Virus record (IMG/VR): IMGVR_UViG_3300020421_000122
Coordinates: 1-25,839 of that record
Source: a virus
Direction: 5' to 3' (one strand)
DNA length: 25,839 bases
Shown: piece after piece, positions 2,134-25,038 of the stretch
How positions within the stretch are numbered: the first letter of the stretch is position 1
Layout: each line of letters starts with the position of its first letter
Notes under the pieces: generated by a model
Told to the model about the DNA's origin: nothing
Seen by the model: the letters and a program-made list of their open reading frames with translations, nothing else
Databases searched by the model: none
Translations under genes and position numbers: made by a program

Positions 2134-2143
2134 ATTCTAGAAT
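2134..2143. repeat. Palindrome over the start region of promoter P1
   Basis: ATTCTAGAAT is a perfect 10-bp palindrome. It overlaps the last two bases of the P1 -10 hexamer and covers the expected transcription start. It could be an operator, but a 10-bp palindrome in AT-rich DNA can occur by chance. Confidence 0.3.
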
Positions 2144-2185
2144 TATATCTCAAAGGACATATTTAGTCAAGTTTTATTTTTGAGG
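2142..2185 (-). promoter_or_regulatory. Promoter P1 (fibre unit), composite motif copy 1
   Basis: On the minus strand the -35 is TTGACT (2170-2165), the spacer is exactly 17 nt, and the -10 is a perfect TATAAT (2147-2142). Upstream at 2181-2174 is AAAAATAA, three nt before the -35, preceded by CCT and one base. The same arrangement and spacing occur at two other gene gaps in this window. The likely transcription start near 2135 leaves only about 13 nt before the ATG at 2122, with the GGAG site inside that very short leader. P1 lies just after the hub gene stop and would drive the fibre genes. Confidence 0.85.
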
Positions 2186-2191
2186 TGGTTA

Positions 2192-5100
2192 CTATGAACC
2201 TAGATAACCAATTTTTACTCGATCTTTATACGTGCTATTGACAGAATCCCATTCTTTTACCTCTATTTTTGCGGTACCTTTGTCCCCTGTCATAAAAATT
2301 CCTGCGGCTCGGGGTTGAGTGCCTGCATTTTGTGCCGGTTCGCTACTAACTATTGTTAATGCTTGTGCCGAAACTCCTCCATCAACAATAATATCCCCGC
2401 CAAAGAAAGCACTAGCTTCTTGCCAAACATTACCTGACGCATTCTGAGTATTATAGTGATTAACACTAGTAGTAGTTAGTATACATCTATATGCTTTAGT
2501 AACATTATTACTATTAACTACTATGGCATGGTCTCCAAGAATAGCGTATCCCCTACCTGTTGCGGCAGTCAATAATCCGGTAGTAATAGATTGTTCGTTT
2601 ATGGTAGCAGTAGTTCCAGTAGAGATACGAAACATTCCCGGACCTGGAGTTCCTGCTTGCCCTTGTGCTGTACTATCTGATCCATCTACTCTCCAAGAGT
2701 ATATTACAGCGGTTGACCACCCTGAATCTTGAGGGGCGGCCGCATCAGACGTATAACGTCGTTGTGAAATCCAAATTTTGTCGCCATTAGCCTGTAATCC
2801 TGGGTTAGTTGTTGCCCAGTTACTACCACTTGCTACTCCATTAACAGGGTCTGCATAAGTTTGATTACTATTAGTAGGAACTTGACCGTCTATATTATTC
2901 CCTGAAGTAGTTCTCTGGTAAACATATTGTACATAGGACCTTTGTCCATCAGTACCATCTGTTGCATCATATTGTACGGCAGTTTCCCAAACCCAATAAG
3001 TAGTCGAGCCCTGTGCTGATGTGTGTGCAGCTCTTCTACCAAAAGATGCATATAATTGATTACTTCCAGCAGGTACTGTAACAGTCCAACTAGTTCCACT
3101 AATTGCAGCTGCTATTGTAGTCGCATTATCTGCCGGTTCTGTAGGAGTACTAGTAGCTCTTTGGTAAATTATTGCTGTGGACTCTCCTGTCTGTCCAGCA
3201 GCGGCTACTGCCATACTTCCTCCAAGCTGGAAGCCATCAACGGCATTATAACGAAGATAGTTTGTTCCGTCCCCAATGTCAAGTACAGGATACCAGTCAT
3301 TATTACCACTAGATCCCGATTTCTGTGCATGGCCAATAAATATACCATCATCTGTATCTGGAGCGGCTACAAAACTACCTGGGGCTGATTTATTTGGTGT
3401 AGTAATTTGTCCCGCAACCTGATTCCCGCTATCATCGGTAGTACCCACAACTATACGACTACCAACCTTTAAGGTATTAGTAAGTGTGGTATTGGCGGCA
3501 AGGGTGGACGCAGAAAGTGTGCCTGGAACAATTACACTTCCTTTAAAGTTTTCAGTAACTTTTGAACTCCAATTAGAATGTGTGACTGAACTCGAATTAT
3601 TTGTTCCACTACCTATATAAATTCTTGAACCGCTCTCTTGTCCACTCTTAGTAATTACTAAAATATCATTTGGTCGTATAAACCCGTCAGCAGATTTAGC
3701 GATTACAGCAAGTGCACCTTCCTGGGCATATTGATTGGTTGTGCTTTCATTTGAAGCCCATAAATTATTATCATTAATCCAAGCAGCATGAGTAGCATCA
3801 TCAATATAATCATGTACTGCAGGATCATAAGTAACCCCAGAACCTGGCTCTTGTCTATCAGCTACATCAATTACATAGGTAGTACCGTCTCGTACTAACT
3901 TTGGTATCTTTGAAAAGGTAAGGGTCTGAAACTTAATTCTAGCCTCATCCCCGATTCTATTTCCCTTTAACTGTTTATTATCTAGTATTCTCAGTAAAAC
4001 ACTTGCATAAAAAGGAGTTGTAGTACCGCTAATAATACCATTAGTATCTGATGTTAAAGTAATTTTACCGTTACTAGTAGTTAATACAGGTGTACAATTT
4101 GTTCCAGTAATACCATCGGTTTGAATGGCACTACCGCTAGGATCCTGGTCTGTGGTTTCATTGTTAGTATCACCATAACTAAAAGTATTATCTGCCACAC
4201 TAGAAGTAAAGGGAGCATATGTTAATTGTTGTGGTCCCAGCGCAGAAAGCCTATATACTGTGGGGGTACAACCACCGAACTCAGTTGCATCTGCTGTACC
4301 ATCTTCATTTGCATAAAAAGTATGGGTTGCATTATTAAAATCTACCTCATAGCCGGGCTTGCCGATGTCTATAGCACTTAAAGATATTTTATCCTTGGCT
4401 GCTTCTTCAGCATTTGCAGGTACTCCATTAGTGTCATCTAATTCGAATACATTTACATATAAAGTTACCGAGTCTCGGTCTGGATTATCAGCAGGGGATT
4501 TAGGTTCGAAGGCTGCATCTAGTGTAAAGTCATCATATGCCGCATTACTACCGTTAGAGTAATTATGCTTTCCTTTATATTGATTAGAAGTATTACTAGC
4601 GCTGGATTGATCACTGCCACTAAGAATATAGTCTTTAGTAGCTGCATTACCATCTATATTAGTACTTATCCAATATTGGTATTGCCAGACTTTATTATTC
4701 GCCAGATTACTAGGAGTAACTCTAAAAGTTAGATTTCCGCTAGGATTGGTTCTATCTTTACCTTCATAAAAAACTATCACTCCATTGGTAGAAACTATAG
4801 ATACTTCCCCTACTTCTCTTCTCTTTGTTACTGTACCTGATATACCATTTCCCGATACTGGGTGCCAAGGGCTCGCAACTGTTCTAACACTTGTACCATT
4901 GGGCCCTTGTACATTTACCTCTTTTACGTGCCGTATCCAGTGATATCTTGGTTGATCTCCAGAGCCCATAGGAGTATATTCGAACTTAGTTATTCCTCCA
5001 GATGTGCCAGAGTTTTGTACCCCATCTAGCCAGCCTCTTTTGCCTTCTTCATCTATTTGGCTGGCTCCTCCTGTCCAAGGAGTTATACCTGAAACAGGTG

Positions 5101-8100
5101 CTATGGATGAAACACCAGAAAAAGATCCTACATAATTACTCCAGATCTCAGTATTAAAATTTGTATTCCATGTTGTTCCATCTTTCTTAAAACAATCAGA
5201 ATTATTAGTCCATGAAAGAACAAACTTTTCATTGTCAGCATCAACAGAAACTGCTAGATTAGTCGGAGCTCCGGGAGCTGGTAAGACGGGAACACTAGTA
5301 CCAGTTATACCTGTAATATCTGATTTTCGTTTTGAAATTAAAAAGGATTCGTCATTATGCTCAACTGCAGTTACTTGAACAGCACAGTCTTCACGCATAT
5401 TTAGATTAGAAATTCTGTAGTATTCGCCTTTTTTATATACTTTTCCTAAAGTAATGGTACTTGTTGGTGCGACAGTGGCAACATCTGCTTGATTAGTTTT
5501 AAAAGAGGTACTATTAACCACTTCAGAAACTGTAAAATATGAATTATTGAAAGCTGTAGCGCCCACACTCCCATGCCCTTGAGGAATACTAATATCTTCA
5601 TACCTAACTACATCTCCCACCTTAAAACCATGAGGATTGGAAGTAGTAGTTTTACCTTGAGTACTAAATTCAACAACTGGAATATCATCACTTCCCCATC
5701 CGAATCTAGGGTAAGAAACCTGTATAATAGTCCCTGCAAGAAGAAGATTGCCTTTTGGCTCCATTATAAAGTTTATTTTCTTGCCATACCTACTTTGATC
5801 CAAATATTGTTTGGCATTAATTCTTGCATTAAAATAATTTAAAATATGCGGAGTTTTTATATCTTGTTTTTTAGGGATATTTCTATCTTCAGCTAAATAA
5901 GTGGAATTAAAATAAGTTACAGCACGGTTACCATAATCTTGCTGCGGATCTGGAAAGTTAACACTAACTGTATTCTTAGAGTTTTTCTGTCCATTATCGT
6001 CTACAGTGATTGCCCCTACAATATCAGTATCCCTTATTATTCGCGTATCGTCTGCTCCATATCCCTCTAAAACAGCGCCTGATTGTACATCAAGTTCATA
6101 CTTCCCATTAGAGTATCTTAAGATTCCATTAAAATGCGCTAATAAACTATTTATATTAGCAAAAACAGTAGTATTAGTGTCAAGAACAGGACAAGCTTGA
6201 TGTCGTGTTACTTCTCGTTGATTCTGTGACTGCCATCCCATATATCTCCAATATTTAACATCATCTGCATCATATAGAGAGTAGCCATTAACAGTAAATC
6301 CTGTTCCGCTCCATGATTTAATAAATGGATTGCCTTCAAAACTAACTGAACCATCTGCGGCGTTTGCACCTTGAGAGGCAAAACTTCCTACATAAGGATT
6401 TAAAGAAGAAGCTCCTGAGCCTGAGCCAACTCTATATAAAGTTATAGCCTGTCCAAACGCGCCATTAGAAGTAGGAACTGTAATTGTCTTAAAAGTAGTT
6501 TCAGCATTAACCCAGAATCTTCCCGTAAAAGGCTCCCACAATAAATCTCCTGGGTTATAACCCTTCCAATCAAACCATTTATGTCCTAATTTTCCAATAC
6601 AACTTGTAAAAGTAACTTCTTTATATGTTCCTCCAGAATATCCAATATTTGAAGAAATGGTTGAAACTGTACCTTGCCATACTGTATTACCAGTATTATC
6701 TCCATCATCGTCATACCTATAAACATCCCCTACACTTATGGAAGCGCTCGCAGGAAATATAATAGAAACATCAGAACGAGTGTCACAAAGTCTTGCAACT
6801 GTTTTAAAACTATCTAAATCAATATCTTTTTCAAGGCTTAACCCCTTACCATACCTCTTATTAGTAATATAATCTAATAATTGCATGGCGGGATTTATAG
6901 TAACTCTATTGTCAGGCTTAGTAATAATTTCTATTTTATCAGCTACTCTAGTACCTCCACCAAGACCCGCTGCAGTATTTGGGGATAAAGTGAAGTCTCC
7001 AGAGGCATCAATATCCCAATCATGACTAACAATAGCGACTACTGCACTGGAGGAAGAGCCATAAGTAATATTCTTACTTTTTACTATTAAACGCTTCTGA
7101 ATGACTCTGGTTCCATCATCCTTAGTTCGAGTCAACTTCACTATCATACCAAAGTAATAATCCTCGGTTGTATTACCTCCAGGAATAACTATTGCTTTAG
7201 GTGCTCGTACGGAAGGGATATCCGCTGTATTCCACCCATTAGCAGGAAGTATGTTAGAAATGTTATCTAGTGTAAGGGTGGAAGAATTTACTTTAGAACC
7301 ATTAGAATTGGATGTAACAAAGAATGAGTAGTTTATTTTAGCTCTAGCTTCGTCAGAGGAGGAGGTAGCGAAAACAGGAGCAATTCCATCGCCATATTCC
7401 ATTGCTTTTGCAACGAGCTCCCCTTGGTCTCCTCCTGCATTAAGTACAATTTTTGTACCATTAGCGGTACCATTGGAATAAGAAGCAACAGTAGCCGTCA
7501 AATTCTTTGTAATATTAGTAGAGGTTATATTCTTATGTTCGTGTGTATTAAAATACCAGCGTTTACCTGTGGAACCCTTCATATAAAAGCTAGTAGTGGT
7601 TCCTAGTCCAGGATCGGAGGCAAATCTCCAAATTTGATGTTTTCCTGTATCCGTACTTACAGGGGGATCTCCTGTTGTACTACCGTCTGAATCTTCATCA
7701 TAATAAGTATGGAAATCAGCAATAGTAATAGCTGAACCAATTTGTGCGTCTCCACTAGTTTTATGTAATGTAACGGATTCCCCTAACTGAAAATCAGTAG
7801 GATTATTATGTGCGGGGTCTGCTATCGGAGGAAAAGGATCTTCCCTATAAGCCCAGTCATAGTTGAAACAAGGTAGAATTCGTCCTCGAACTACAAAGTC
7901 TAGTTCAGGGATTTGTAAATCTTCTTCTGTAACCTCAAAATGACAAACTACATAAGCTGTATCTAGTAATCTATGATTTGGTCCCCAGTAGTTTGATTTA
8001 TCCTCATCCTCAAAATATTGACTCTGAACTAAGAAGCCCGCTGTTGTTACATCACCAGCATTATTTTTTTGTAATGCTGCAGCTTTATGAACTAAAGTTT

Positions 8101-9766
8101 GATCGGCCTCTTGATCTGGTTTTCCTCTGTGGAAGATTAACTTTGTATTAATTGGAGTTTCAAATACATGACCTAATTTATGTCGTATACCTGTTGCAGG
8201 GCTTTTTGTATTATTTTGTGCGTCTGAAATTTTTTGCCAGCCTGTTTCTGGAGCAAAGACCATCATTTCTCGTGGACCGCCTTTATAATCTACTCCATTG
8301 ATATTAATAGTACCAAAAGGGCCTGCATGTATATAAGAGGTAGCTGTGGTATGTAATGATTTAGAGGCTAAAGTATCTCCCCTATCCTTTCTACCTTCAC
8401 AAACAACACTTACTGCATCAGAGTCATCGCTTCGACTGCCCTCATCATTTCCATCTGCACAAATTCTACTTTTATCATCAATATAAATATCATATAAACC
8501 TGCTACCTCCCCTTCACATAAAGCGTATGCAGCATATACATTCTGAGTTTCCTTTGCATCTAAATCAACAAAAATAGGAAAACTGTCAATCCTATTAACA
8601 CCATATACTACTGGGAGGCGACGAGCATCAAGATTAAACTTTAATTCTATCTCACGTTCAACTTCTTCCTCGTATTCTATAGTTTTGCCACTACCTAACC
8701 CTGCAAAGCCGGTTTTTTTAAATTTATATTTGGTTTCTGTTGCTTTATATTTTGCAATTAAATTAAGAGCTTGTTCGGAGTGCATAAATCCAAAATCATT
8801 AATATACTCCGGACGAATAAGAGCAGCATAATCAGTTTGCCCTTGTCCATTAATTCCTCTATGTTCTGTATCTGAAGTTAAACGACCATTTACTGTTACA
8901 AAGTCGCCCCAATGACTTGTAAGGTTCCAACTAATTGTTGATACTTTATTTGGATCTTCTTTTAATTTAACATTAGCAATTATACCTTTAAAAATTAAAA
9001 TCGGCCCTGCTATATAAGTATCATCATAACCTTGTTGGGTACTATTAATTATCGGCGGAGCGGATCGTCCTATAATTTCTCCAGTGGAAGGATCTAATAA
9101 TGCTTTATAGACAAAAACTTCTCTATTTATATAATGAGCGTAACTGGACTCTCCCTTATCAGCGAATAAACTAGAATGTTCTTCTGTTTCTATTGTAAAA
9201 GTATAGTTGGCATTAGAGCTAGTGGAAACCCCTCCTGACTCTAAAATGACAGTAACTGTTTTATTGGCATTTCTGAATCCAGTAATAATAATATACTTTC
9301 CATTATTACCATCATCTGATGCAATTCTAATTTTATCGCCTTCCGAAAAACCTGCATCAATCCAACTTTCACTAATTTCTACAGTAGCAGGATTAGAGTC
9401 ATGAACAATAGTAGTGCTAGTAGGGACTACGGTTGAATTTAATGCTATTGAGTCCAGGGTTAACGTCATACTAGTAGCTTTCGCCTGAGTAGTTTCTGCA
9501 ACCTGACCTACTTTAGTTAAACGCTCGGCTACATAAGTTTGAGCTCCATTCCAGTCACCTACTGAATTCTGACTACCATCATCAAAAGTTATATTGTGAG
9601 AGGCATCAGTCAAATAAGAGTAGTCTTGAAAAGTTTCTGCAACTGCTCCTGTAACTGTTTTTATTGGTTTCTCAAATTTTACTAAATGAGCATATAGGAA
9701 CGGGTCTCCGCTTCTGAGTTTGGCGGAAACGTCTGAATTTATTTGTCGTAATATTTTTACTGTCAT
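2192..9766 (-). CDS. Giant central tail hub / host specificity protein (gpJ-like)
   Basis: 2524 residues, more than twice the length of lambda J (about 1130). Approximate order of parts: residues 1-300, a hub-like N-terminal region (ILRQINSDVSAKLRSGDP; HWGDF..VNGRLTSD near 285) resembling the DUF2163-type hub of gene transfer agents; 380-1300, a gpJ-like body (VVYGVNRIDSFPIF near 385, NPAMQLLDYITNKRYGKGL near 965, SVNFPDPQQDYGNRAV near 1270); 1380-1420, a small insert starting HGFKVGDVV; about 1500-1560, a fibronectin-III-like region (PGAPTNLAVSVDADNEKFVL); then beta-rich repeats, a GTLSAS..TNTLKVGS segment near 2100, two tandem modules near 2195-2360, a short GTPGPG link, and a C-terminal IIVDGGVSAQAL segment. 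It overlaps the previous gene by 4 nt (ATGA). It would close the tail tube tip and carry receptor-binding parts. No peptidase or lysozyme motif was recognised. Confidence 0.9.
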   Translation of the reverse strand: MTVKILRQINSDVSAKLRSGDPFLYAHLVKFEKPIKTVTGAVAETFQDYSYLTDASHNITFDDGSQNSVGDWNGAQTYVAERLTKVGQVAETTQAKATSMTLTLDSIALNSTVVPTSTTIVHDSNPATVEISESWIDAGFSEGDKIRIASDDGNNGKYIIITGFRNANKTVTVILESGGVSTSSNANYTFTIETEEHSSLFADKGESSYAHYINREVFVYKALLDPSTGEIIGRSAPPIINSTQQGYDDTYIAGPILIFKGIIANVKLKEDPNKVSTISWNLTSHWGDFVTVNGRLTSDTEHRGINGQGQTDYAALIRPEYINDFGFMHSEQALNLIAKYKATETKYKFKKTGFAGLGSGKTIEYEEEVEREIELKFNLDARRLPVVYGVNRIDSFPIFVDLDAKETQNVYAAYALCEGEVAGLYDIYIDDKSRICADGNDEGSRSDDSDAVSVVCEGRKDRGDTLASKSLHTTATSYIHAGPFGTININGVDYKGGPREMMVFAPETGWQKISDAQNNTKSPATGIRHKLGHVFETPINTKLIFHRGKPDQEADQTLVHKAAALQKNNAGDVTTAGFLVQSQYFEDEDKSNYWGPNHRLLDTAYVVCHFEVTEEDLQIPELDFVVRGRILPCFNYDWAYREDPFPPIADPAHNNPTDFQLGESVTLHKTSGDAQIGSAITIADFHTYYDEDSDGSTTGDPPVSTDTGKHQIWRFASDPGLGTTTSFYMKGSTGKRWYFNTHEHKNITSTNITKNLTATVASYSNGTANGTKIVLNAGGDQGELVAKAMEYGDGIAPVFATSSSDEARAKINYSFFVTSNSNGSKVNSSTLTLDNISNILPANGWNTADIPSVRAPKAIVIPGGNTTEDYYFGMIVKLTRTKDDGTRVIQKRLIVKSKNITYGSSSSAVVAIVSHDWDIDASGDFTLSPNTAAGLGGGTRVADKIEIITKPDNRVTINPAMQLLDYITNKRYGKGLSLEKDIDLDSFKTVARLCDTRSDVSIIFPASASISVGDVYRYDDDGDNTGNTVWQGTVSTISSNIGYSGGTYKEVTFTSCIGKLGHKWFDWKGYNPGDLLWEPFTGRFWVNAETTFKTITVPTSNGAFGQAITLYRVGSGSGASSLNPYVGSFASQGANAADGSVSFEGNPFIKSWSGTGFTVNGYSLYDADDVKYWRYMGWQSQNQREVTRHQACPVLDTNTTVFANINSLLAHFNGILRYSNGKYELDVQSGAVLEGYGADDTRIIRDTDIVGAITVDDNGQKNSKNTVSVNFPDPQQDYGNRAVTYFNSTYLAEDRNIPKKQDIKTPHILNYFNARINAKQYLDQSRYGKKINFIMEPKGNLLLAGTIIQVSYPRFGWGSDDIPVVEFSTQGKTTTSNPHGFKVGDVVRYEDISIPQGHGSVGATAFNNSYFTVSEVVNSTSFKTNQADVATVAPTSTITLGKVYKKGEYYRISNLNMREDCAVQVTAVEHNDESFLISKRKSDITGITGTSVPVLPAPGAPTNLAVSVDADNEKFVLSWTNNSDCFKKDGTTWNTNFNTEIWSNYVGSFSGVSSIAPVSGITPWTGGASQIDEEGKRGWLDGVQNSGTSGGITKFEYTPMGSGDQPRYHWIRHVKEVNVQGPNGTSVRTVASPWHPVSGNGISGTVTKRREVGEVSIVSTNGVIVFYEGKDRTNPSGNLTFRVTPSNLANNKVWQYQYWISTNIDGNAATKDYILSGSDQSSASNTSNQYKGKHNYSNGSNAAYDDFTLDAAFEPKSPADNPDRDSVTLYVNVFELDDTNGVPANAEEAAKDKISLSAIDIGKPGYEVDFNNATHTFYANEDGTADATEFGGCTPTVYRLSALGPQQLTYAPFTSSVADNTFSYGDTNNETTDQDPSGSAIQTDGITGTNCTPVLTTSNGKITLTSDTNGIISGTTTPFYASVLLRILDNKQLKGNRIGDEARIKFQTLTFSKIPKLVRDGTTYVIDVADRQEPGSGVTYDPAVHDYIDDATHAAWINDNNLWASNESTTNQYAQEGALAVIAKSADGFIRPNDILVITKSGQESGSRIYIGSGTNNSSSVTHSNWSSKVTENFKGSVIVPGTLSASTLAANTTLTNTLKVGSRIVVGTTDDSGNQVAGQITTPNKSAPGSFVAAPDTDDGIFIGHAQKSGSSGNNDWYPVLDIGDGTNYLRYNAVDGFQLGGSMAVAAAGQTGESTAIIYQRATSTPTEPADNATTIAAAISGTSWTVTVPAGSNQLYASFGRRAAHTSAQGSTTYWVWETAVQYDATDGTDGQRSYVQYVYQRTTSGNNIDGQVPTNSNQTYADPVNGVASGSNWATTNPGLQANGDKIWISQRRYTSDAAAPQDSGWSTAVIYSWRVDGSDSTAQGQAGTPGPGMFRISTGTTATINEQSITTGLLTAATGRGYAILGDHAIVVNSNNVTKAYRCILTTTSVNHYNTQNASGNVWQEASAFFGGDIIVDGGVSAQALTIVSSEPAQNAGTQPRAAGIFMTGDKGTAKIEVKEWDSVNSTYKDRVKIGYLGS
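2680..3184 (-). repeat. Two tandem diverged modules in the hub C-terminal region
   Basis: At protein level, copy A (about 3184-2956) and copy B (about 2946-2680) share YQRATS / YQRTTS, SGTSW / SGSNW, an RRA / RRY site after an aromatic strand, and ETAVQYDATDG / STAVIYSWRVDG at the end. Each is about 75-90 residues. They look like duplicated beta domains, perhaps glycan-binding, but the function is inferred from position only. DNA identity between copies is low. Confidence 0.6.
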
Positions 9767-15489: not shown

Positions 15490-15496
15490 TCCAGAA

Positions 15497-15949: not shown

Positions 15950-15963
15950 ATTACTCTATACTC

Positions 15964-16842
15964 CTATGTTGTGTTATAAGTTATTACGCTTGAAAGCGAG
16001 GTTGGGTTTTGTGTCATTCTCCAATCATACCCTTCAGAAAATACATCTGATACTTGGATTCGATTTGTAAATGAGCAATTACTTATATTAAAATCTAGTC
16101 CATAAAAAGGTGTTATTGATCCCGCTTTTATTCTTATACTCGTATTGGTACTCCACGTAAGTACGTCTGTTGAGCCTTCTTCTAAATATTTTGATATTGA
16201 GCCTGATACTACTCTAGTCCCAGTGGTAAACTCAGTAGGGTACATAGAACTGGTACTATCAGTTGCCGCTAACCCTCCTTGTATTGTGGTGTACTTATTC
16301 CACTCAATGTCATTATCAAGCTCTACTGACATAGTTCTAGGGGCTATTTCTGTACTACCAATCGTACACTGAGCAATACGGGCTAAATTGTAGGTACTGG
16401 TAGTAATACTAGTGTTCTGTGCAACACCTGGTATTGTCCCAGTAAATTTTGACAGCTTAGATGCTTCGCCTTCCACCGTTAAACTCAGGGGTTTAGATTT
16501 ATTAATCTCGAACGACCCATTTGTAATAACGCATTTTTCCAGCTTAAAATCATCTTGCGGTGTAGATATGTATAAATCAAAAGTTGTATAATCAAGTAAT
16601 CTTTCAAATACAATCTTATTTCTTACTTCCTGCAATAATGGAACTGTAAAAGAAACACTTGCAGGCTGTGCTTTATTTATTATGGAACCTTCAAAGCTAC
16701 TTTGGTTATGTAACGTTTTTACAGCATAAGAAACTTCTGTAAATACTTGGCCAAAGGTAATTTCACTTATGTCTAACTTATACTGCTTGCTATCGTGCAC
16801 AAGATATAAACTAGCTTCTTTTTTAAAAGTAAATTCTGCCAT
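15964..16842 (-). CDS. Second tail tube protein (paralogue of the 16945-18567 product)
   Basis: 292 residues. The N-terminus MAEFTFKKEASLYLVHDSKQYKLDISEITF matches the start of the larger tube protein in pattern (MAEyxxFxrdsxLYmxxDgxxyxxpxxxxxxF). Near residue 205 it has EFTTGTRVVSGSISKYL, matching HITGTRTVSGSATCYL in the larger protein. I infer a tail tube-like beta-barrel fold; it could be a second tube subunit, a tube end cap, or an initiator at the hub. It lacks the two inserts found in the larger paralogue. It is the first gene after promoter P2 and is preceded by a leader with a strong hairpin; the ribosome binding site is weak (GGA only). Confidence 0.75.
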   Translation of the reverse strand: MAEFTFKKEASLYLVHDSKQYKLDISEITFGQVFTEVSYAVKTLHNQSSFEGSIINKAQPASVSFTVPLLQEVRNKIVFERLLDYTTFDLYISTPQDDFKLEKCVITNGSFEINKSKPLSLTVEGEASKLSKFTGTIPGVAQNTSITTSTYNLARIAQCTIGSTEIAPRTMSVELDNDIEWNKYTTIQGGLAATDSTSSMYPTEFTTGTRVVSGSISKYLEEGSTDVLTWSTNTSIRIKAGSITPFYGLDFNISNCSFTNRIQVSDVFSEGYDWRMTQNPTSLSSVITYNTT

Positions 16843-16863
16843 GTCAGTCCGTTTTATATGATA

Positions 16864-16883
16864 AGGGGCTCAAAAGAGCCCCT
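16864..16883 (-). other. GC-rich leader hairpin after promoter P2
   Basis: AGGGGCTC-TTTT-GAGCCCCT forms a perfect 8-bp stem with a 4-nt loop. It starts about 9 nt after the expected P2 transcription start, so it would sit at the 5' end of the mRNA. It is followed by TTATCATATAAAA, not a U-tract, so it is a poor terminator on this strand. It may protect the mRNA end, affect translation of the next gene, or partly stop transcripts arriving from the large tube gene. Confidence 0.7.
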
Positions 16884-16898
16884 CTCTTTACCCTATAT

Positions 16899-16942
16899 AT
16901 TATATTTCAAAACACCACAAATGTCAAGAATTATTTTTTAGG
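16899..16942 (-). promoter_or_regulatory. Promoter P2 (second tube to hub unit), composite motif copy 2
   Basis: Perfect consensus on the minus strand: TTGACA (16927-16922), 17-nt spacer, TATAAT (16904-16899). AAAAATAA lies at 16938-16931, again 3 nt upstream of the -35, preceded by CCT plus one base. It starts just after the stop of the large tail tube gene. The expected start near 16892 gives a leader of about 50 nt including the hairpin. Confidence 0.9.
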
Positions 16943-16944
16943 GG

Positions 16945-18567
16945 TTATACACCGATGTACTTGAGTGTCACTTCGTCAGCTTCACCTACACCAGAGCCCA
17001 GTCCATGGAAGTTGGTTTCCAAAGAAATCACATCTTCAATAGAGTGACTAGGAACTTCTAAGTGCGCAGTAGGTAATGAAATTTCAAACCGTGGTTTGGT
17101 TGTATCTGTACCACCTACTTGCAAGGTAATTGCAAACTTGTTAATAACAGTATTAACATCAGAGACTAAGTCCGCAAACAAGTCACGACTTCGGTTAGTA
17201 GCAGCGTCTGAACTTGCTAAATAACAAGTAGCGCTACCAGAAACTGTTCGTGTTCCTGTTATGTGCTCGATTGGTTGGTTAACCTTACCGAGTTCTTCCG
17301 GTGTTAAGTAGGAAATATTATTACTAATAGTAACATTTCCACCCGTTAATGCAACAGAGTAACTTGTCTCATATGAGTCAGAGTTTCCTGCAGCGTTTGT
17401 AAACGTTGTAGAACTTTGGAAAGTACTCTCAGGTGCTAAGGTCAGCTGAGTTAGTCGGTTACGGATAAAGTTTCCAGTATCTGTAGTTCCTTCAGTTCTG
17501 GCTTGAGTCCAACTTGCTGCCGCATTTGTTGCACTTGTTGACATATAGAACTTATCACTATCATCAGTATCAATCCAAATTGCTCCCGCAGCTGATGGGT
17601 TTGGAAAGGTTGCTGCCGCAGTAAACTGCCCTGCACCCAGTCCTGTTGGAACTTCCTTAATCTGACCCGCCATTCCTGACCAGCTAATTTGTGCAATACC
17701 ATCTATATCAAAATCAATAGATGCTTCGTTTACAACCGCATTTTCTAACTTGTACAACAATCGACCCGCGCTTCTATCACTAAATACATAGTATAGATTG
17801 AACGTTCCTAATGCTGCACGACTTGAGTCATAAAAGTTAATATCCAAGTCTGTAGCGTCTGAAGTAAAGGATTCTGAAGTTACTGTAAGAACTAAGTTAT
17901 CGTCTCCTGATGCTCCACCGATAAGCTCACTATCAACAGTGATTGTATTACCAGTATCGAACTGAGTTCCCCTTTCTGTAATGGTTGTAGTTGCAACACC
18001 ACTACCGTTAACAACGATTGAGAGTACCGCGTTAGTTCCATCAGTATTACTACCTGAGCCTGCAGCTACTGTTGCTCCAGTACTACTTCCAGAGGCAGCG
18101 GTTGGTACAGCAACGGTATAAGTTCCTGCTGTTCTGTCACTATCAGTTCCACCTGAAGTGGTTGCTAATGAGGTGATTGCACCACCAGTTGACCCATGCT
18201 TGAATTTACCAGTAGTTGGCTGATATGCATTTTGACCTGCCATTGCTACCCATAAGGCTTCTTCACAAGCGTGCTGATGATTAGCGCTGCTATCGGCTAC
18301 GCCATTATTGTACGCCTTTGATCCTGCTGATTTAAAGGGTCGCACATATGAACTAAAAGACCATTCGGCAGCTGATAGAGAGTCTGTAAACATTTTACGA
18401 CCTCTACGAGACCTGCCGGAAGCATCCTCCATCTCGTTAAGAGTTATCTCGGAGGAATTCGTTGCTTGAGAGAAGCTAAATCCATCAAGCACAGGAATCG
18501 ACCAGAGATATCCGTCTTTTTCCATGTAGAGGCGCGAGTCTCTACTAAAATGTAAATATTCTGCCAT
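16945..18567 (-). CDS. Major tail tube protein (large, with inserted modules)
   Basis: 540 residues, long for a tail tube subunit. The core begins MAEYLHFSRDSRLYMEKDGYLW and has WSFSSYVRPF near residue 70 and EHITGTRTVSGSATCYL near 430; the C-terminus is FEISLPTAHLEVPSHSIEDV..., typical of tube proteins. Two segments look inserted. Residues about 136-229 are a glycine-rich beta module ending TITVDSELIGGASGDDNLVL, and residues about 322-354 hold IWIDTDDSDKFYM...SWTQAR. Both have matches elsewhere in this window. The gene lies between the tail terminator and the chaperones, as expected. AGGAG precedes the ATG at good spacing. No composite promoter is found in the 61-nt gap upstream, although a tube protein would be needed in high amount. 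It polymerises to form the tail tube. Confidence 0.85.
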   Translation of the reverse strand: MAEYLHFSRDSRLYMEKDGYLWSIPVLDGFSFSQATNSSEITLNEMEDASGRSRRGRKMFTDSLSAAEWSFSSYVRPFKSAGSKAYNNGVADSSANHQHACEEALWVAMAGQNAYQPTTGKFKHGSTGGAITSLATTSGGTDSDRTAGTYTVAVPTAASGSSTGATVAAGSGSNTDGTNAVLSIVVNGSGVATTTITERGTQFDTGNTITVDSELIGGASGDDNLVLTVTSESFTSDATDLDINFYDSSRAALGTFNLYYVFSDRSAGRLLYKLENAVVNEASIDFDIDGIAQISWSGMAGQIKEVPTGLGAGQFTAAATFPNPSAAGAIWIDTDDSDKFYMSTSATNAAASWTQARTEGTTDTGNFIRNRLTQLTLAPESTFQSSTTFTNAAGNSDSYETSYSVALTGGNVTISNNISYLTPEELGKVNQPIEHITGTRTVSGSATCYLASSDAATNRSRDLFADLVSDVNTVINKFAITLQVGGTDTTKPRFEISLPTAHLEVPSHSIEDVISLETNFHGLGSGVGEADEVTLKYIGV

Positions 18568-18628
18568 AGTTTAATCTCCTATGAACCTGAAAAGACTGGT
18601 CGTGAATATTTATTCGTGCCAGAATTTT

Positions 18629-19081
18629 CTAATAACGAACTTCTACTAGTATTTCGCCTACTCCTAGAGGTTCGAGCACACCTTCATCAGTATCTATACT
18701 AATGACAGTGATTTGTTGAGTATAGTAAACAATATTCATCTTGTCAGTATACTCTAATCGTGAGTTATCTTCTATAACTGTCTCTACATCTTCCATTAAT
18801 TGATTTAATACTTCTTGAGCATCTTCATCTTCTACATAACATCTGATTGTGACTGTTAAAAATCTATCTCTTACTCCTGCAGTTCTATATTGCCGAGTTT
18901 CGTTGCCGGCATTAAGGTGAATTGCGGGGAATTCATCTATCTCATCCCAGAACTTTAATCGAGGATGGACATTTTCTCCTACATCTGTCAGGAAAGCTCC
19001 CTGACCATTGATTCCTTTTAGTTTACTAACAAGAGAATCCACTATTCTCTTGCGTCTAGAAGCATAAGTTCTTGATGTCAT
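18629..19081 (-). CDS. Tail terminator / tail completion protein
   Basis: 150 residues, mixed alpha/beta. The N-terminal helix RRKRIVDSLVSKLKGI is followed by FPAIHLNAGNETRQY, a strand pattern FLTVTIRCYVEDED and the helix LNQLMEDVETVIE; it ends EPLGVGEILVEVRY. This helix-strand-helix-strand plan and length fit the tail terminator (gpU/gp17-like) family, which caps the tail tube at the head side. Position directly before the tail tube gene supports this. The ATG overlaps the previous stop (TAATG) and has AGGAGA 6 nt before it. The family call is by pattern, so moderate. Confidence 0.75.
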   Translation of the reverse strand: MTSRTYASRRKRIVDSLVSKLKGINGQGAFLTDVGENVHPRLKFWDEIDEFPAIHLNAGNETRQYRTAGVRDRFLTVTIRCYVEDEDAQEVLNQLMEDVETVIEDNSRLEYTDKMNIVYYTQQITVISIDTDEGVLEPLGVGEILVEVRY

Positions 19082-20526
19082 TACTGTCTCCTAGTGTACA
19101 TTCTTCCTAAACCGAACTGTGATACGATCTCTCTTATTGACTGGTCTATTATTACTCGAGGGTCTCTATAGGCACTTGCGAACCGAGTTCCACTCCCAGT
19201 TTCGTACACCTCATAAGGATCTCTTGCATAAGTATAACCAACACTAGGGTATCCTTGGGCGGTTTGCGTAACATCTGTAGCCCTGACACTTTCTAAAAAT
19301 CTTCCTGTTCTGCTTTCTAGTCTAGGATCTACCATTTTTGCTCCAACCCTGTCCTGTAGCTGGGCATTAACTAGTCCTAATATATTCTGTATATTGAATT
19401 TGGGTTGTTCTCCGGCGGAGGCCGTAGCTGCTCCGGCAGGTAGTGTTGGTTCTGCGATTTTCCCTCTTCCACCTCTTTCAACGTTAGCTCCATCAATTTT
19501 TTTACTTACTGTCTTTTTTCGTGCTTTCTTTTTTGTATTTTCAGTTCTAACAGTAACATACTTATTTTTCTTATATGACTTTGCAATACTATTAATAATG
19601 GTTTTACGATCTACTAGTAATAGAGAGTCTGAGCCTTTTAACTGGTACAATTCTAAACCCTCAGCACCGCCAGTAAGTAACTCTTTTAATCGCTTTCTAA
19701 TATCGTTTAGTTTTTTCTTCATCTCAGCACCTCTTAGAATATTACCGGTGGCTCCTTCCATTGAGATTTCAAACTCCATAACCCCTGTCTCAGGGTCTCT
19801 CATAAATTTTAAATCAATTCCTAAGGTCTTTAAATCTGCTATTAAATCTGTTTCTGCTAAACATTCTAAGGGCTCGGTTTTCTTCATGACCTTCTTTTTA
19901 TGTTTATCAAATGCTTCTCGCATCCTTGTTTCAACTACACCCTGTCCCATTTTATGACCGGAATGCATAGCTCTACCTTTGTATAGACGCTTTCCATCCT
20001 TACTAGCATAGGCTTTTTCAAACTTCTCTGAACGACCCATACCACCTTCACTTTTTTCTGCTTTTTTGGTTAAATGCCCTCTTACACCGTGAAAGAACGC
20101 ACTATAGCCTTTATGGTATGCGCGTTTTATCTTATCGAAAACATCCTTTTGACCCTGTGCCCATTTATTAGGTGGTAACCCTGTTCGTATATTTGTGGTA
20201 AACACAAATGAAATTATACCGTTCCTTTCCACTACTTTCGCAGCTACACCTTGCTTTTGACCCCCATTAGCTTTTAAGGTCATACTCTCTAATGTAGTTC
20301 TTAATGTACTAGTCATATTCGGTGCTATTTTTCTAATATAAGTATTTAATGCTGCACTTTTAATTTCTTTAGCAGCCATCTCAGCTATAAATTCCTCAAT
20401 AAACATGTCTTCACTATATACGAAAGTATGAGTGCGAAGATTATAACTTAATCGTGTATCTGCGCTGGGGGATTCTAAGTCTTTACTTAAACCCTCTATA
20501 AACGTCATTAATGATTCAGTACTCAT
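19081..20526 (-). CDS. Neck / head-tail joining protein, unknown family
   Basis: 481 residues. The first 60 residues are acidic; residues about 120-290 are strongly basic and helical (K/R-rich, with MKKKLNDIRKRLKELL); residues about 330-370 are a basic, low-complexity linker. The last 100 residues include DPRLESRTGRFLESVRATDV, PSVGYTYARDPYEVYETG, and RDPRVIIDQSIREIVSQFGLGRMY, which looks like a separate compact domain of gp10-like head-tail completion type. It lies between the connector and the tail terminator, where HK97-type phages place gp10-like proteins (usually only 120-150 residues), so this would be an enlarged version. It overlaps both neighbours by 1 nt (TAATG). Ribosome binding site is weak. 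Function is inferred from position. Confidence 0.7.
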   Translation of the reverse strand: MSTESLMTFIEGLSKDLESPSADTRLSYNLRTHTFVYSEDMFIEEFIAEMAAKEIKSAALNTYIRKIAPNMTSTLRTTLESMTLKANGGQKQGVAAKVVERNGIISFVFTTNIRTGLPPNKWAQGQKDVFDKIKRAYHKGYSAFFHGVRGHLTKKAEKSEGGMGRSEKFEKAYASKDGKRLYKGRAMHSGHKMGQGVVETRMREAFDKHKKKVMKKTEPLECLAETDLIADLKTLGIDLKFMRDPETGVMEFEISMEGATGNILRGAEMKKKLNDIRKRLKELLTGGAEGLELYQLKGSDSLLLVDRKTIINSIAKSYKKNKYVTVRTENTKKKARKKTVSKKIDGANVERGGRGKIAEPTLPAGAATASAGEQPKFNIQNILGLVNAQLQDRVGAKMVDPRLESRTGRFLESVRATDVTQTAQGYPSVGYTYARDPYEVYETGSGTRFASAYRDPRVIIDQSIREIVSQFGLGRMYTRRQ

Positions 20527-21113
20527 TAAAAGTTTTTATATAGGTCTAAGACTCTCTTAATGTGGTCTGGAAATGCAACATTATCTTTCTGACTAGAACT
20601 ACCATCATTTTGTATACTAGCGCCTGCCATGGTTCGCCGTTGTTTATGCTCATCTTTCAAGTAGTAAGTAATTAAATCAATTACTGCTAATTTTAAATCA
20701 GCTGGAACAGCGCTATAGCCTGCAGTATACACTATTTTTACAGCACCGACTCCTGTTGGCCAATTCTGGTAGCCACCTGAGGTTGTTCTAATAACACTAT
20801 CTGTTGTAGTGTCTAGAGCGTATTCATAAGCTCCGGTTGTAAGTGTAGTATAAGAGTCAGAATACGACTGACGTTCTTGTACACTTACTATTGCATTGAT
20901 AGGGCTCTCAGTTAGCTGTACTATATGAGTTCCCCAATTAATATTGAACTCTTCTGTTTTATTAGAAGAGTAATAATCTACAAAACTGTTTGCACAATAA
21001 GTTTTTATTAATTGACTCACAGAAGGTATTAATGCATTAATTCTCAAGTCCTCTTTTGGAGTACTCAAGCCTTCCGCATCTTTATAATCTTGTAATGTTA
21101 TTAAATCTGCCAT
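20526..21113 (-). CDS. Head-tail connector protein (HK97 gp6-like)
   Basis: 195 residues. The N-terminus MADLITLQDYKDAEGLSTPKEDLRINALIPSVSQLIKTYC is the classic gp6-type start (LxxYK.. then paired helices), with ESPINAIVSVQ near 70, IVYTAGYSAVPADLKLAVIDLITYYLKD near residue 125-150, and an IKRVLDLYKNF ending. These match the connector family that forms a ring under the portal. It follows the capsid gene after the terminator at 21126-21151, with no evident ribosome binding site before the ATG. Its overlap with the next gene is one base. Low copy number (a 12-13-mer ring) would fit reduced transcription after the terminator. Confidence 0.9.
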   Translation of the reverse strand: MADLITLQDYKDAEGLSTPKEDLRINALIPSVSQLIKTYCANSFVDYYSSNKTEEFNINWGTHIVQLTESPINAIVSVQERQSYSDSYTTLTTGAYEYALDTTTDSVIRTTSGGYQNWPTGVGAVKIVYTAGYSAVPADLKLAVIDLITYYLKDEHKQRRTMAGASIQNDGSSSQKDNVAFPDHIKRVLDLYKNF

Positions 21114-21125
21114 AAATCAACTAAT

Positions 21126-21151
21126 AAAAACTTAGGGGAGGATCCCTCCCC
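21126..21151 (-). terminator. Rho-independent terminator after the capsid gene
   Basis: On the minus strand GGGGAGG-GAT-CCTCCCC forms a 7-bp GC-rich stem with a 3-nt loop (21151-21135), followed by TAAG and TTTTT (21130-21126). It lies 40-65 nt after the capsid stop. Only about 13 nt separate it from the connector ATG, and no promoter fits there, so downstream genes must depend on readthrough or on a more distant start. Confidence 0.75.
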
Positions 21152-21160
21152 CAGTTCCCA

Positions 21161-21180
21161 TGATTACTAGTAAGTAATCA
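21161..21180 (-). other. Perfect 8-bp hairpin after the capsid stop
   Basis: TGATTACT-TACT-AGTAATCA on the minus strand is a perfect 8-bp stem with a 4-nt loop, 10 nt after the capsid stop and 9 nt before the terminator. It may protect the 3' end of the capsid mRNA from exonucleases or assist the terminator. Confidence 0.6.
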
Positions 21181-21190
21181 AAAAGTGCTA

Positions 21191-22609
21191 TTAAGCGTTG
21201 TCTGCGTATCTCAAGGAACGTGCACCATTAGTAGTTTCAAGTGCCTTAAATCCGAGCGCCTGGCTAGCAACCAGAACATTACGCTGCTTACCAACTTCGT
21301 AATCAGTCTCAATGGTGACTCCACGTAGACGTGGGACAACAAAGCGGCCTGTATTAACAACGATAGCTGCAGTGCCTTCGTCAGCAGGTGATAGTTCGTT
21401 AGAAACAACCACAGGTGAACCGAATGCAGTACCCATCATGCCATTAATGTTGGCTGCGATATCTGATCCTGCTTTATCAACAGTTCGGAAATCGCCATCT
21501 TCTGCAAGAAGATCATAGTATACAGCAAGAGAAACAACATAAACAAGATCAGCAGGATTAATGCCATACTTGCCCATAGCTTCTCTTCCAATCTCAAGCA
21601 TAGAAGCTGTAAATGCAGGTGCTCCATCAAGCTGTGCAGTTACAACAGTTGCACCTGATACAAGACCAGAGCCCTTATCGCTTCCGTCTCCACCAGCGAG
21701 TCCATAAATAGCGCCTGAAGTTCCATAAAGAATGGCTTTATCAGTTGCTACAGCATGTGATCGTGCAAGTGCTGAGGTAATCATTGGAATAAAAGAAACC
21801 AAAGATGTCTCATCTACATCGTTATCGATGTAAGTACCTGCTGCGAGACGCTGAGTGTTTAACACACGGTTTGCAACGTCAAACTGGCCATTAGTTCCGC
21901 CTGCAGCCATATCTAAACGATCATTCGCAGTATCAATGGAGAATGCTGTACCCCAAGTTGCTCCATTAACGTCTGCAACGAAAGGCATAACTGTTGCTCC
22001 TGATGATACAGGAATCTCACGGAACAAACCAAGAAGTTTAGTTTCTAGCTTAACTTCCTCTTCGAACTGTTGAGTTACAGTTATATCAAGATTACCAGAG
22101 GTAGTTTGGCTACCAAACTGTGTTCCATCTGTACCTTTTTGCATGACTCGCTTACCAAGGTCAGTATCCCAACCTTTCTTTGTAATTGCGCCATAAACTT
22201 TAGCTTCCAAAGCTTCACGACCAAAAGCCTCTTTAGACTTACTAGAAAACTCAAACTTGCTATTACGCATAGCTTCAAGCTCATCGGCCTTCTCTTTAAC
22301 TTGGCCTTCGTACTTTTTGACAAGCTCATTTATTTCTTCAGCTTTTGCAGCTTCGAATTCTTTTTGCATGTCAGTAGCCAAGCGGTCAGTACCAGACTCA
22401 ACAGCAGTTACTACTGCTTGCTTGACTTCTTCTTCTTGCTGAGCTTTAGCTTCTGCTTCCGCAGTTGCTTTCTCAGCTAGTTCTTTTTGTACAGCCTCAT
22501 CGGCTGCTTTTTGCTCGGCTTGCTTCATTGCAATTTTAGCAGCAGTTTCCTCAGCTACTTTTTTAGCAAAAGCTTCCAAGTCAACGGGTTGTTGTGTCTC
22601 TTCAGACAT
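21191..22609 (-). CDS. Nested major capsid protein (internal start)
   Basis: In-frame ATG at 22609 inside the protease-capsid fusion, preceded by AAAAGGAGA and 5 nt, one of the strongest ribosome binding sites in the window. It would give a free capsid precursor of 472 residues beginning MSEETQQPVDLEAFAKKVAEE, that is, starting exactly where the scaffolding delta domain begins. This would supply the hundreds of capsid copies needed while the full-length fusion provides few protease copies. The site and frame are seen directly; its use is inferred. Confidence 0.65.
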   Translation of the reverse strand: MSEETQQPVDLEAFAKKVAEETAAKIAMKQAEQKAADEAVQKELAEKATAEAEAKAQQEEEVKQAVVTAVESGTDRLATDMQKEFEAAKAEEINELVKKYEGQVKEKADELEAMRNSKFEFSSKSKEAFGREALEAKVYGAITKKGWDTDLGKRVMQKGTDGTQFGSQTTSGNLDITVTQQFEEEVKLETKLLGLFREIPVSSGATVMPFVADVNGATWGTAFSIDTANDRLDMAAGGTNGQFDVANRVLNTQRLAAGTYIDNDVDETSLVSFIPMITSALARSHAVATDKAILYGTSGAIYGLAGGDGSDKGSGLVSGATVVTAQLDGAPAFTASMLEIGREAMGKYGINPADLVYVVSLAVYYDLLAEDGDFRTVDKAGSDIAANINGMMGTAFGSPVVVSNELSPADEGTAAIVVNTGRFVVPRLRGVTIETDYEVGKQRNVLVASQALGFKALETTNGARSLRYADNA

Positions 22610-23146
22610 CGTTATCTCCTTTTGGACTTGCGCCCCGTCACTATTAGTGAAAGTTTTTTTGAAATCTTCGTACTCATCCATCGAGTCGAAGGACTTCGCC
22701 AGTGAAAAAGTAGCTGTTTGGTTACAGGGTACAGATACTACCGATACCTCAAACAATTCAGCGTCCTTTATTCTCAATCCGTCGGTTTCCTCTAAGTAAT
22801 CAGCGTCCTTGACTCGGAAACCAACAGAAAAGGCTCCAAGAACACCGTCTTTAACTAGTTCAGCTACATCGTTAGCTGCCTTACTAATTTTTGCTGTTAA
22901 CTCAAGCCCATCTTTAGAAGCTTTGACTTGCGTCGCTCTTCCAATCGGCCTGTTGTAATCATGATTGAAAAGAATTATCGGATTCTTCTCGAAATTATCT
23001 AACCCACCCTTAGTCCATGCGTCTGCTGATATAGAGTCGCCCGCGCGGTCAAAATCTGCAGTACTAGCCATACCTCGGATTTTAATACTACCATCATCCT
23101 CAGTATGAGACTTAAAAGTAGAGGTTAGATTAAATACTTTTTCCAT
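21191..23146 (-). CDS. Prohead protease-major capsid protein fusion
   Basis: 651 residues from ATG 23146, which has a strong GGGAGGAGAG site directly before it; the longer start at 23176 adds ten residues that would encode that site, so I prefer 23146. Residues about 1-165 are an HK97-family prohead protease (U35/S78-like): LFNHDYNRPIGR gives a likely catalytic His62 and GAFSVGF a likely Ser107, followed by LFEVSVVSVP with Glu133. Residues about 180-300 are A/E/K/Q-rich helix like the scaffolding delta domain that is cut off in HK97. Residues about 305-651 are an HK97-fold capsid (VTQQFEEEVKLETKLLGLFREIPV, MPFV, TDKAILYG, DYEVGKQRNVLVASQALGF). The fusion would process itself. A second start with its own site lies inside at 22609. 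The gene overlaps the 97-residue gene by 17 nt. Confidence 0.9.
   Translation of the reverse strand: MEKVFNLTSTFKSHTEDDGSIKIRGMASTADFDRAGDSISADAWTKGGLDNFEKNPIILFNHDYNRPIGRATQVKASKDGLELTAKISKAANDVAELVKDGVLGAFSVGFRVKDADYLEETDGLRIKDAELFEVSVVSVPCNQTATFSLAKSFDSMDEYEDFKKTFTNSDGAQVQKEITMSEETQQPVDLEAFAKKVAEETAAKIAMKQAEQKAADEAVQKELAEKATAEAEAKAQQEEEVKQAVVTAVESGTDRLATDMQKEFEAAKAEEINELVKKYEGQVKEKADELEAMRNSKFEFSSKSKEAFGREALEAKVYGAITKKGWDTDLGKRVMQKGTDGTQFGSQTTSGNLDITVTQQFEEEVKLETKLLGLFREIPVSSGATVMPFVADVNGATWGTAFSIDTANDRLDMAAGGTNGQFDVANRVLNTQRLAAGTYIDNDVDETSLVSFIPMITSALARSHAVATDKAILYGTSGAIYGLAGGDGSDKGSGLVSGATVVTAQLDGAPAFTASMLEIGREAMGKYGINPADLVYVVSLAVYYDLLAEDGDFRTVDKAGSDIAANINGMMGTAFGSPVVVSNELSPADEGTAAIVVNTGRFVVPRLRGVTIETDYEVGKQRNVLVASQALGFKALETTNGARSLRYADNA
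22615..22623 (-). promoter_or_regulatory. Internal ribosome binding site for capsid
   Basis: AAAAGGAGA on the minus strand, followed by TAACG and ATG. It is better than the sites of most genes here and lies in the linker between the protease and delta domains, the right place for independent capsid synthesis. Confidence 0.7.
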
Positions 23147-23423
23147 TCTCTCCTCCCGAGCTTCCCTTTTTAACAACTTTAGGGGCTGCTTTGGCTTTTG
23201 GTTTCAGGTCCTTAGTTTCTGGAAAAACTTTTTGCATGGTTCCTATAATACTATCCCAAGAACTGGACCAAACCTCATCATCAAGGTAAGACTCTTCCAA
23301 CCATTTGGTTTTTAGTGCCTCTTCCTTGCTTATAAGATACCCTTGCTTTACAGAAGTATCTGCAAAATATTTCAAGGCTAACATCCTATATTTTTCATGT
23401 AGCTTTATCTTTTTTTCTGTCAT
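23130..23423 (-). CDS. Small phage protein of unknown function between portal and protease
   Basis: 97 residues. The N-terminal two thirds are helical and mixed in charge (KLHEKYRMLALKYFADTS; WLEESYLDDEVWSSSWDSIIGTM), and the last 30 residues are a basic, flexible tail (KPKAKAAPKVVKKG). No signal peptide or membrane segment. The ATG overlaps the portal stop as ATGA, and its 3' end overlaps the protease-capsid start by 17 nt, so it is firmly part of the operon. I do not recognise the family. Its position suggests a head assembly or portal-associated role, but that is only inference from order. Confidence 0.8.
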   Translation of the reverse strand: MTEKKIKLHEKYRMLALKYFADTSVKQGYLISKEEALKTKWLEESYLDDEVWSSSWDSIIGTMQKVFPETKDLKPKAKAAPKVVKKGSSGGENGKSI

Positions 23424-24610
23424 TCTTCTTCCTCTTCTACGGGTCTACCGCCCTCATTTGGATTTGAAGCACTACCCGCTATATTTGCTGGTATTCGTAG
23501 TTCATCATGTCCTTCTAGAGCTTCAAACCCTAATTGTGATCTTGCTTCATTTGCACTTATAATACCGGCATTGACTAATCCAGAATAGTAAAATGATTGA
23601 TCTCGTAATTCAGGCTGTAGAGCAGGAATATTAGTAATATCTTCCTTTACACTAAAACCAAAAAATCTTTCTAGTCCAAAGTTAACTTTTCGTACTATAG
23701 GTAGTATTGTCTCTAAATAATACATCCTCATATTTGGACGTATGTTTGCATTATTGCCTGAATCTAATAAAATTGGAGGGACTCCTACTGCCTTTAATAT
23801 AATCTTTTCGTTTTCACCTATAGAACTCTGGAAGTCTAAATCTTTAAAGTTAACATTTGAAATAGCATCTATTTCTATTCCACCATCCAGAATTAGAGGC
23901 CGTCTGCCTCCTGCTGTAGGTTGATACCTTACTTGCCAGGATTGAAGCATTCGCTCCTTAATCTTCTCTGATAAAGTATTAGGACTTTTTAAAACCAACC
24001 CTGGCACAGCCCCGTTTTTAAAGAAATTATCTTGAAACTGCCGCATATTTGCCATTAAAGACATAGTACGAACGGCAGGTTTTAATCTAGAAACTCCCCT
24101 GTATATATCATGGAAGGAATTTTCTTTTATATGTATAATTTCATCAGGAGAGTAGTCTACTTCAGCATAGGTATACTTACTTATAAATGTTTTTGCGTCT
24201 GCATGAATTGTAACATCGGAGGCAGGGATATGGTAGAAGTGAGCACCATCATAATAAATAAAAATATTGCCATCAAGAATATAATCAGTAATTAAATTAC
24301 GCTTGAAGGAGCTGATGTCTTGGAATAGGTTTGGTTCCTCATTTATAAGTTTTTGAACTTTTGAACGCTTTATCCCTTTTACAACTCCAGACATATTAAT
24401 AGGCTGCACTATTGCAGGTATTTCCGCACAGTCATCAACAACCATATTTACTGCACGGTTAACAATCTCTATAGTCTCATAGTACTTTTCATAACTTTGA
24501 GTGTGCTCACGAGACGATTGCGACTCTGTTCCAAAGTACTGTTGAACAGGATTTAATTTTTCATAAATATCCTCTTCACTTCGGTTTAAGAATCTGTCAT
24601 ACCATGCCAT
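23420..24610 (-). CDS. Portal protein (HK97 family)
   Basis: 396 residues, near the usual length for HK97 portals. It begins MAWYDRFLNRSEED, with IEIVNRAVNMVVDDCAEIPAIV about residues 47-68, a stretch NLITDYILDGNIFIYYDG near 105-122, PDEIIHIKENSFHDIYRGVSRLKPA near 155-179, and KERMLQSWQVRYQPT then ILDGGIEIDAISN near 217-250; DQSFYYSGLVNAGIISANEARSQLGFE near the end is the family's C-terminal helix with the 'G-x-x-s-x-N-E-x-R' pattern. It forms the dodecameric gate for DNA at the head vertex and binds the terminase during packaging. It overlaps the HNH gene by 14 nt and the next gene by 4 nt. AGAGATAA lies before the ATG. Confidence 0.95.
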   Translation of the reverse strand: MAWYDRFLNRSEEDIYEKLNPVQQYFGTESQSSREHTQSYEKYYETIEIVNRAVNMVVDDCAEIPAIVQPINMSGVVKGIKRSKVQKLINEEPNLFQDISSFKRNLITDYILDGNIFIYYDGAHFYHIPASDVTIHADAKTFISKYTYAEVDYSPDEIIHIKENSFHDIYRGVSRLKPAVRTMSLMANMRQFQDNFFKNGAVPGLVLKSPNTLSEKIKERMLQSWQVRYQPTAGGRRPLILDGGIEIDAISNVNFKDLDFQSSIGENEKIILKAVGVPPILLDSGNNANIRPNMRMYYLETILPIVRKVNFGLERFFGFSVKEDITNIPALQPELRDQSFYYSGLVNAGIISANEARSQLGFEALEGHDELRIPANIAGSASNPNEGGRPVEEEEE

Positions 24611-24962
24611 GTTTATCTCTTTGAATCTGTACCCAGCGCATTTGTTTCTTTGCCGTTGTTAATGCGGGGTTGCGGCCATATACTTTGTGCAGTTGTCTGT
24701 GGTGTCCGTAGCACAAAGTGACAGTGTGCTCATATAATTCTGCCCAGTGCTCTTCTATAAAATCATCCCGAATTGCAAGAATATATTTAGGATCATGCCC
24801 CGTCTTTTTAATCCAGTTGTGTATAAGAGGTGCTAAACTATAGTAGTGGTGGAAATCTAATTTAACGTCAGCCCCACAGATATAGCATTCCGAGTCCTTT
24901 TCGTAGTTATTCTTCGCTCTATCTCGGATATATTTTACTATATCTCGTTTTAATTCGGCCAT
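24597..24962 (-). CDS. HNH endonuclease
   Basis: 121 residues. Zinc ligand pairs are visible as C26-x2-C29 and C84 with H87, and the catalytic motif is D37-H38-H39 followed by the helix with H87/H88 and LHKVYGRNP, in the HNH order. Small HNH proteins beside the terminase and portal genes assist terminase in cutting at cos sites in several phages (HK97 gp74 is the known example), so a packaging role is more likely than a homing role; this is inference. It is the first gene after promoter P3, with a leader of only about 26 nt and no clear ribosome binding site before the ATG. It overlaps the portal gene by 14 nt. Confidence 0.85.
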   Translation of the reverse strand: MAELKRDIVKYIRDRAKNNYEKDSECYICGADVKLDFHHYYSLAPLIHNWIKKTGHDPKYILAIRDDFIEEHWAELYEHTVTLCYGHHRQLHKVYGRNPALTTAKKQMRWVQIQRDKHGMV

Positions 24963-24994
24963 TGGGTTTTAGAACTTCTATTTTCAATTAGAGA

Positions 24995-25038
24995 ATTATA
25001 TCGAGTTTCAGATACTATGTCAAACATTATTTTTCAGA
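24995..25038 (-). promoter_or_regulatory. Promoter P3 (HNH-portal-capsid unit), composite motif copy 3
   Basis: Perfect TTGACA (25023-25018), 17-nt spacer and TATAAT (25000-24995) on the minus strand. AAAAATAA lies at 25034-25027, three nt upstream of the -35, preceded by TCT plus one base. It sits just after the terminase stop. The expected start is near 24988. Confidence 0.9.

Follow-up and report, generated by a model that had tools for sequence, protein, structure and literature searches.

The window, the whole 25.8-kb (25,839 nt) stretch analysed here, is a single virus record and a genome fragment. Its clear genes are all structural and all lie on the minus strand. They begin with the C-terminal part of a terminase large subunit (212-aa ORF, 25045–25683; phrog_5653, phrog_2), of which the complete gene in the relative G021 encodes 434 aa. 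A small HNH-like gene (24597–24962; phrog_3497, with a weak HNH match) lies between terminase and portal (23420–24610), the latter about 40% identical to T5-like portals. Protease/capsid and head-tail connector genes are also present, together with genes for the major tail protein (16945–18567; phrog_3575), a tail tube/baseplate protein (15964–16842; phrog_3889), the tape measure, a distal tail protein, a 2524-aa J-like central tail fibre protein (2192–9766; phrog_31) and a protein resembling those for L-shaped tail fibre assembly (1784–2122; phrog_1084, phrog_3304). The 661-aa minus-strand ORF at 21191–23176 has matches to profiles for prohead protease (PF04586, phrog_80) as well as for the major head protein (phrog_617), and is an apparent protease-capsid fusion, the two being separate genes in T5.

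The best matches of the portal and major tail proteins are T5-like phages, at 31–41% identity, and megablast of the window against cultured phages returned no match. G021 (72.9 kb), whose portal is 72% identical to that of the window, encodes a T5-type polymerase, 46% identical to that of T5, as well as D5, ligase, a DnaB-like helicase, SbcCD and PhoH, with late genes on one strand and replication genes on the opposite one. The window and its relatives are genome fragments; in the window and G021, T5-type structural and replication genes are found in T5-like order. The window is a late operon of structural genes from an uncultured phage of T5-like type. Among contigs with portal relatives, 6 of 8 were binned with marine gammaproteobacterial genomes, a hint at the host and weak evidence, because binning of phage contigs is itself weak. 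The portal-relative phage contigs in public MAGs (L334–L341) fall mostly in Gammaproteobacteria, also in Parcubacteria and Bacteroidetes, a membership that is probably contamination plus a host hint.

Exact matches to AAAAATAA-N3-TTGACW-N17-TATAAT occur three times in the whole window, with no mismatch and always on the minus strand (2142–2181, 16899–16938 and 24995–25034), each in a gap immediately 3' of a stop codon. Putative late promoter 1 (24995–25038) occupies the gap between the terminase large subunit gene and the HNH/portal genes, and the HNH-like gene is the one it would serve first; AAAAATAA is at 25027–25034, TTGACA at 25018–25023 and TATAAT at 24995–25000, with a predicted start around 24988. 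Putative late promoter 2 (16899–16942) stands between the major tail protein gene and the tail tube gene, the first gene past it, with AAAAATAA at 16931–16938, TTGACA at 16922–16927, TATAAT at 16899–16904 and a predicted start around 16892. Putative late promoter 3 (2142–2185) separates the J-like gene from the tail-fibre assembly gene, again the first gene downstream; here AAAAATAA is at 2174–2181, TTGACT at 2165–2170 and TATAAT at 2142–2147, and the start is predicted around 2135. TTGACA and TATAAT hexamers with a spacer within 17 ± 1 correspond to sigma70 promoters, and the consensus score is 12/12 at two sites and 11/12 at the one with the TTGACT -35. Shuffling put the chance expectation at 0.05 matches per window on average, and 0 of 100 shuffles gave three. 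No further copy at ≤3 mismatches is present in the window, nor does AAAAATAA-N3-TTGACW occur in it beyond the three sites. The initial annotation had described three copies of one layout in three gaps, two of them perfect sigma-70 consensus, with no other copy in the window, and all of this was borne out. T4-type late promoters are read by a phage sigma and have a TATAAATA -10 and no -35; in contrast, the window promoters have both hexamers of the host sigma70 consensus.

Two hairpins were found along the operon. One, resembling an intrinsic terminator, lies 3' of the capsid gene without an adjoining promoter (21133–21153, minus strand), at the same post-capsid junction where T5 has a terminator. 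The other (16860–16886, minus strand; fold z-score -4.5) is in the predicted leader of promoter 2, from +7 to +33. In the relative L188 (11790–11850), a comparable hairpin followed by a T-run is found just upstream of the promoter, so that the side of the promoter on which it stands seems to differ between lineages.

With the -10 hexamer numbered -12 to -7 and the -35 hexamer -35 to -30, the block falls at -46 to -39. Its conservation was measured at orthologous loci collected by protein, where promoters were accepted by their -35 and -10 alone. The initial annotation had named loss of the block at equivalent gaps of close relatives that keep both hexamers as evidence against its proposal. The block survived this comparison: among 81 distinct orthologous gaps keeping -35 and -10 (35 terminase, 37 major-tail and 9 J gaps), which are not independent events because the sequences are related, 0 had lost the block. 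Despite this relatedness, flanks and spacers show that there was ample time for change. In ortholog pairs whose spacers were more than 20% different, block mismatch was 0.00, 0.06 and 0.04 for the terminase, major-tail and J gaps, respectively, versus 0.45, 0.52 and 0.55 for the spacers. Hexamer mismatch was low, in part because sites were selected on the hexamers; the block was not so selected. The YCT-N that the annotation placed at the upstream end is present as written in all three window copies, but the DNA just upstream of the block (-55 to -47, YCT included) mismatches at 0.53–0.67 in diverged orthologs, so that YCT does not belong to the element. What is conserved is A(5)-T-A-R-T-T-C, from -46 to -36, abutting the -35 hexamer. 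The comparison strongly supports a conserved and presumably functional block upstream of what look like strong sigma70 promoters. A dyad or direct repeat around the -35, suspected by eye from ACC/GGT and ACCT pairs in some gaps, was discarded, as its orientation differs between gaps.

Searching IMG/VR with AAAAATARTTCTTGACA-N17-TATAAT gave at least 120 matches, versus 4 contigs in all IMG/VR for a control pattern with the block reversed. Among the matches listed were 119 loci with the pattern, and at 113 of them the encoded proteins, some early and some late, belong to this phage group. Signals of this kind are strongly conserved in a large set of uncultured marine T5-like phages. In the Vibrio T5-like phage JSF10, however, a perfect late sigma70 promoter lacks the block, which is therefore not universal among T5-like phages; the motif is a lineage signature of this T5-like group.

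The early loci were gathered via the D5 homolog and not via the motif, and near-identical sites were thinned before counting. An A-tract, taken as at least four A's at -46 to -42, was present in 39/51 early and 59/61 late promoters, classes that are defined by homology of the neighbouring genes and not by expression, and in 0/5 intragenic chance promoters. The block is thus slightly stricter in late promoters (p=0.0014). In G021 and its group, replication-gene promoters are also preceded by it, at sites beside the genes for DNA polymerase, the D5 homolog, ligase and helicase. The proposal that the block defines a late regulon is therefore not supported, and the block was rejected as a late-regulon marker because early promoters of the same phage group carry it. 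One record (G009; L208, 13700–16900) has a cluster of closely spaced promoters beside polynucleotide-kinase-like and D5-like fragment genes, in several of which the block is weakened (CCAAATAGTTG), while one has the -35 TTGCTT in the style of T5.

The classes differ around the -10 hexamer. A G at -13 was found in 43/51 early versus 15/61 late promoters (p=1.5×10−10), an A at -6 in 47/51 versus 24/61 (p=3×10−9), and both together in 41/51 versus 2/61 (p=1×10−18); these p-values are optimistic because of phylogenetic non-independence, and the early sites span several different genes. Separately, late promoters have C at -52 more often (40/61) than early ones do (19/51; p=0.004).

In T5, the host sigma70 polymerase transcribes all three gene classes (pre-early, early and late), P-J5 and P-G25 were shown to be late by primer extension, early promoters share an ATATT discriminator, and the mechanism of the early-to-late switch is stated as unknown (PMC7472727). 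The promoters of the marine group resemble those of T5 (early P-N25 and P-H207 group, late P-G25 and P-J5) in their host sigma70 type, N17 spacer and TATAAT; early and late promoters alike have an A-tract where the proximal UP subsite would lie. Of the T5 TTG-N20-TATAAT sites, 28/35 have AAAA within -46 to -38, late P-G25 included, and late P-J5 has AAAAA beginning at -46. The early promoters further agree at -6 (A) and, for the most part, at -13 (G): A-6 is present in 31/35 and G-13 in 22/35 of these T5 sites, nearly all of which are early, and late P-G25 and P-J5 are without G-13. P-G25 lies after pb2, a place equivalent to that of promoter 3 after the J-like gene, and has a terminator immediately before it there. 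There are differences. The early -35 of T5 is TTGCTA or TTGCTT, whereas TTGACA serves in either class of the marine group; the block reads AAAAATARTTC in the marine group and is AAAAATTCAT-like in T5; and the T5 annotation has no promoter at the places equivalent to window promoters 1 and 2. The profile of gpT5.026, phrog_4215, whose homologs were considered as a candidate switch factor, matches in T5 and JSF10 and in none of 10 group fragments, which are incomplete genomes.

The proximal UP region extends from -46 to -38, with an A-tract at -44 to -41 (PMC5664571), and in rrnB P1 the A's at -41 to -43 are critical (PMC4390567). The phage block is A-rich within these limits: positions -44 to -42 are A in at least 90% of the thinned early and late sites, and -41 is T in 75–86%. 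It resembles the proximal subsite of the E. coli UP element (rrnB P1 type), which likewise is A-rich from -46 to -38 and precedes a sigma70 promoter, but it departs from the E. coli full-UP consensus by a T in place of A at -41, and adds TTC beside the -35; alpha would bind it without a distal subsite, and no conserved one was found in the promoters of the group. Phage Mu Pm similarly has a proximal-type UP subsite only; however, it depends on the activator Mor, and the site for alpha is farther upstream, at -53 to -55 (PMC4390567).

Because the block occupies the positions of a proximal UP subsite, where T5 has A-tracts in both classes, we read it as a proximal UP-like subsite. We consider it fairly probable that the phage relies throughout on promoters for host sigma70 in which a proximal UP-like subsite serves the alpha C-terminal domain. 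The three strong promoters of the window would each start transcription anew at a junction of the late operon, serving portal-side, tail-tube-side and fibre-side genes. On the AAAAATAR block, at -46 to -39, one alpha C-terminal domain of the host RNA polymerase would dock beside sigma region 4 at the -35, and raise initial binding. The block would be a general module of the promoters of the group, early and late, and timing would be set elsewhere, most likely by the -10 flanks, with G-13 and A-6 in early promoters. Of the initial suggestion of an UP-like element or a phage activator site, the conserved block and its fit to the proximal UP register stand, but a late-specific activator is unlikely, because the same block precedes replication-gene promoters.

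The block is more specific than an A-tract, and this counts against the UP reading: T-41 and the TTC occupying -38 to -36 make it conceivable that something else reads the block. In the best surviving alternative, which we hold to be unlikely, AAATARTTC abutting the -35 is the site of a phage or host DNA-binding factor, not alpha, that acts on all phage promoters and would recruit or retain polymerase on phage DNA. The specific T-41, A-40, R-39 and TTC, the near confinement of the motif to one lineage and a D5-family DNA-binding regulator encoded in 8/8 records searched all speak for such a factor. However, the block coincides exactly with the alpha proximal subsite and has no conserved dyad or repeat, T5 promoters of the same layout are strong sigma70 promoters (PMC7472727), and the early promoters that carry the block must fire before early products accumulate. 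Less probable still is a block unread by any protein, which would either bend or stiffen the DNA as a rigid A-tract or be the relic of a recent duplication of a promoter cassette. The A-tract composition and the likeness of the three copies agree with this, but T-41 and TTC go beyond an A-tract, and flanks and spacers have diverged by 45–70% around a block that has not, which argues against a recent duplication. A late-specific activator site defining a late regulon is very improbable, for although all three window sites precede late genes and the block is slightly stricter in late promoters, it also stands at early replication-gene promoters in these genomes.

On its own, the composite sequence is enough of a signature to retrieve an abundant uncultured T5-like group from metagenomes, and it marks the transcription units of that group. 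That the shared block is not the late signal corrects a tempting error, and the -13/-6 contrast offers a testable handle on the early-to-late switch of T5, in which all promoters are host sigma70 promoters (PMC7472727). More speculatively, and with rather low odds in our estimation, AAATARTTC may be a lineage-specific box read at every promoter of the phage by a phage-tuned RNA polymerase partner, and G-13/A-6, two positions around the -10, an early timing code. If true, the phages of this group and T5 would have a compact temporal code in common.
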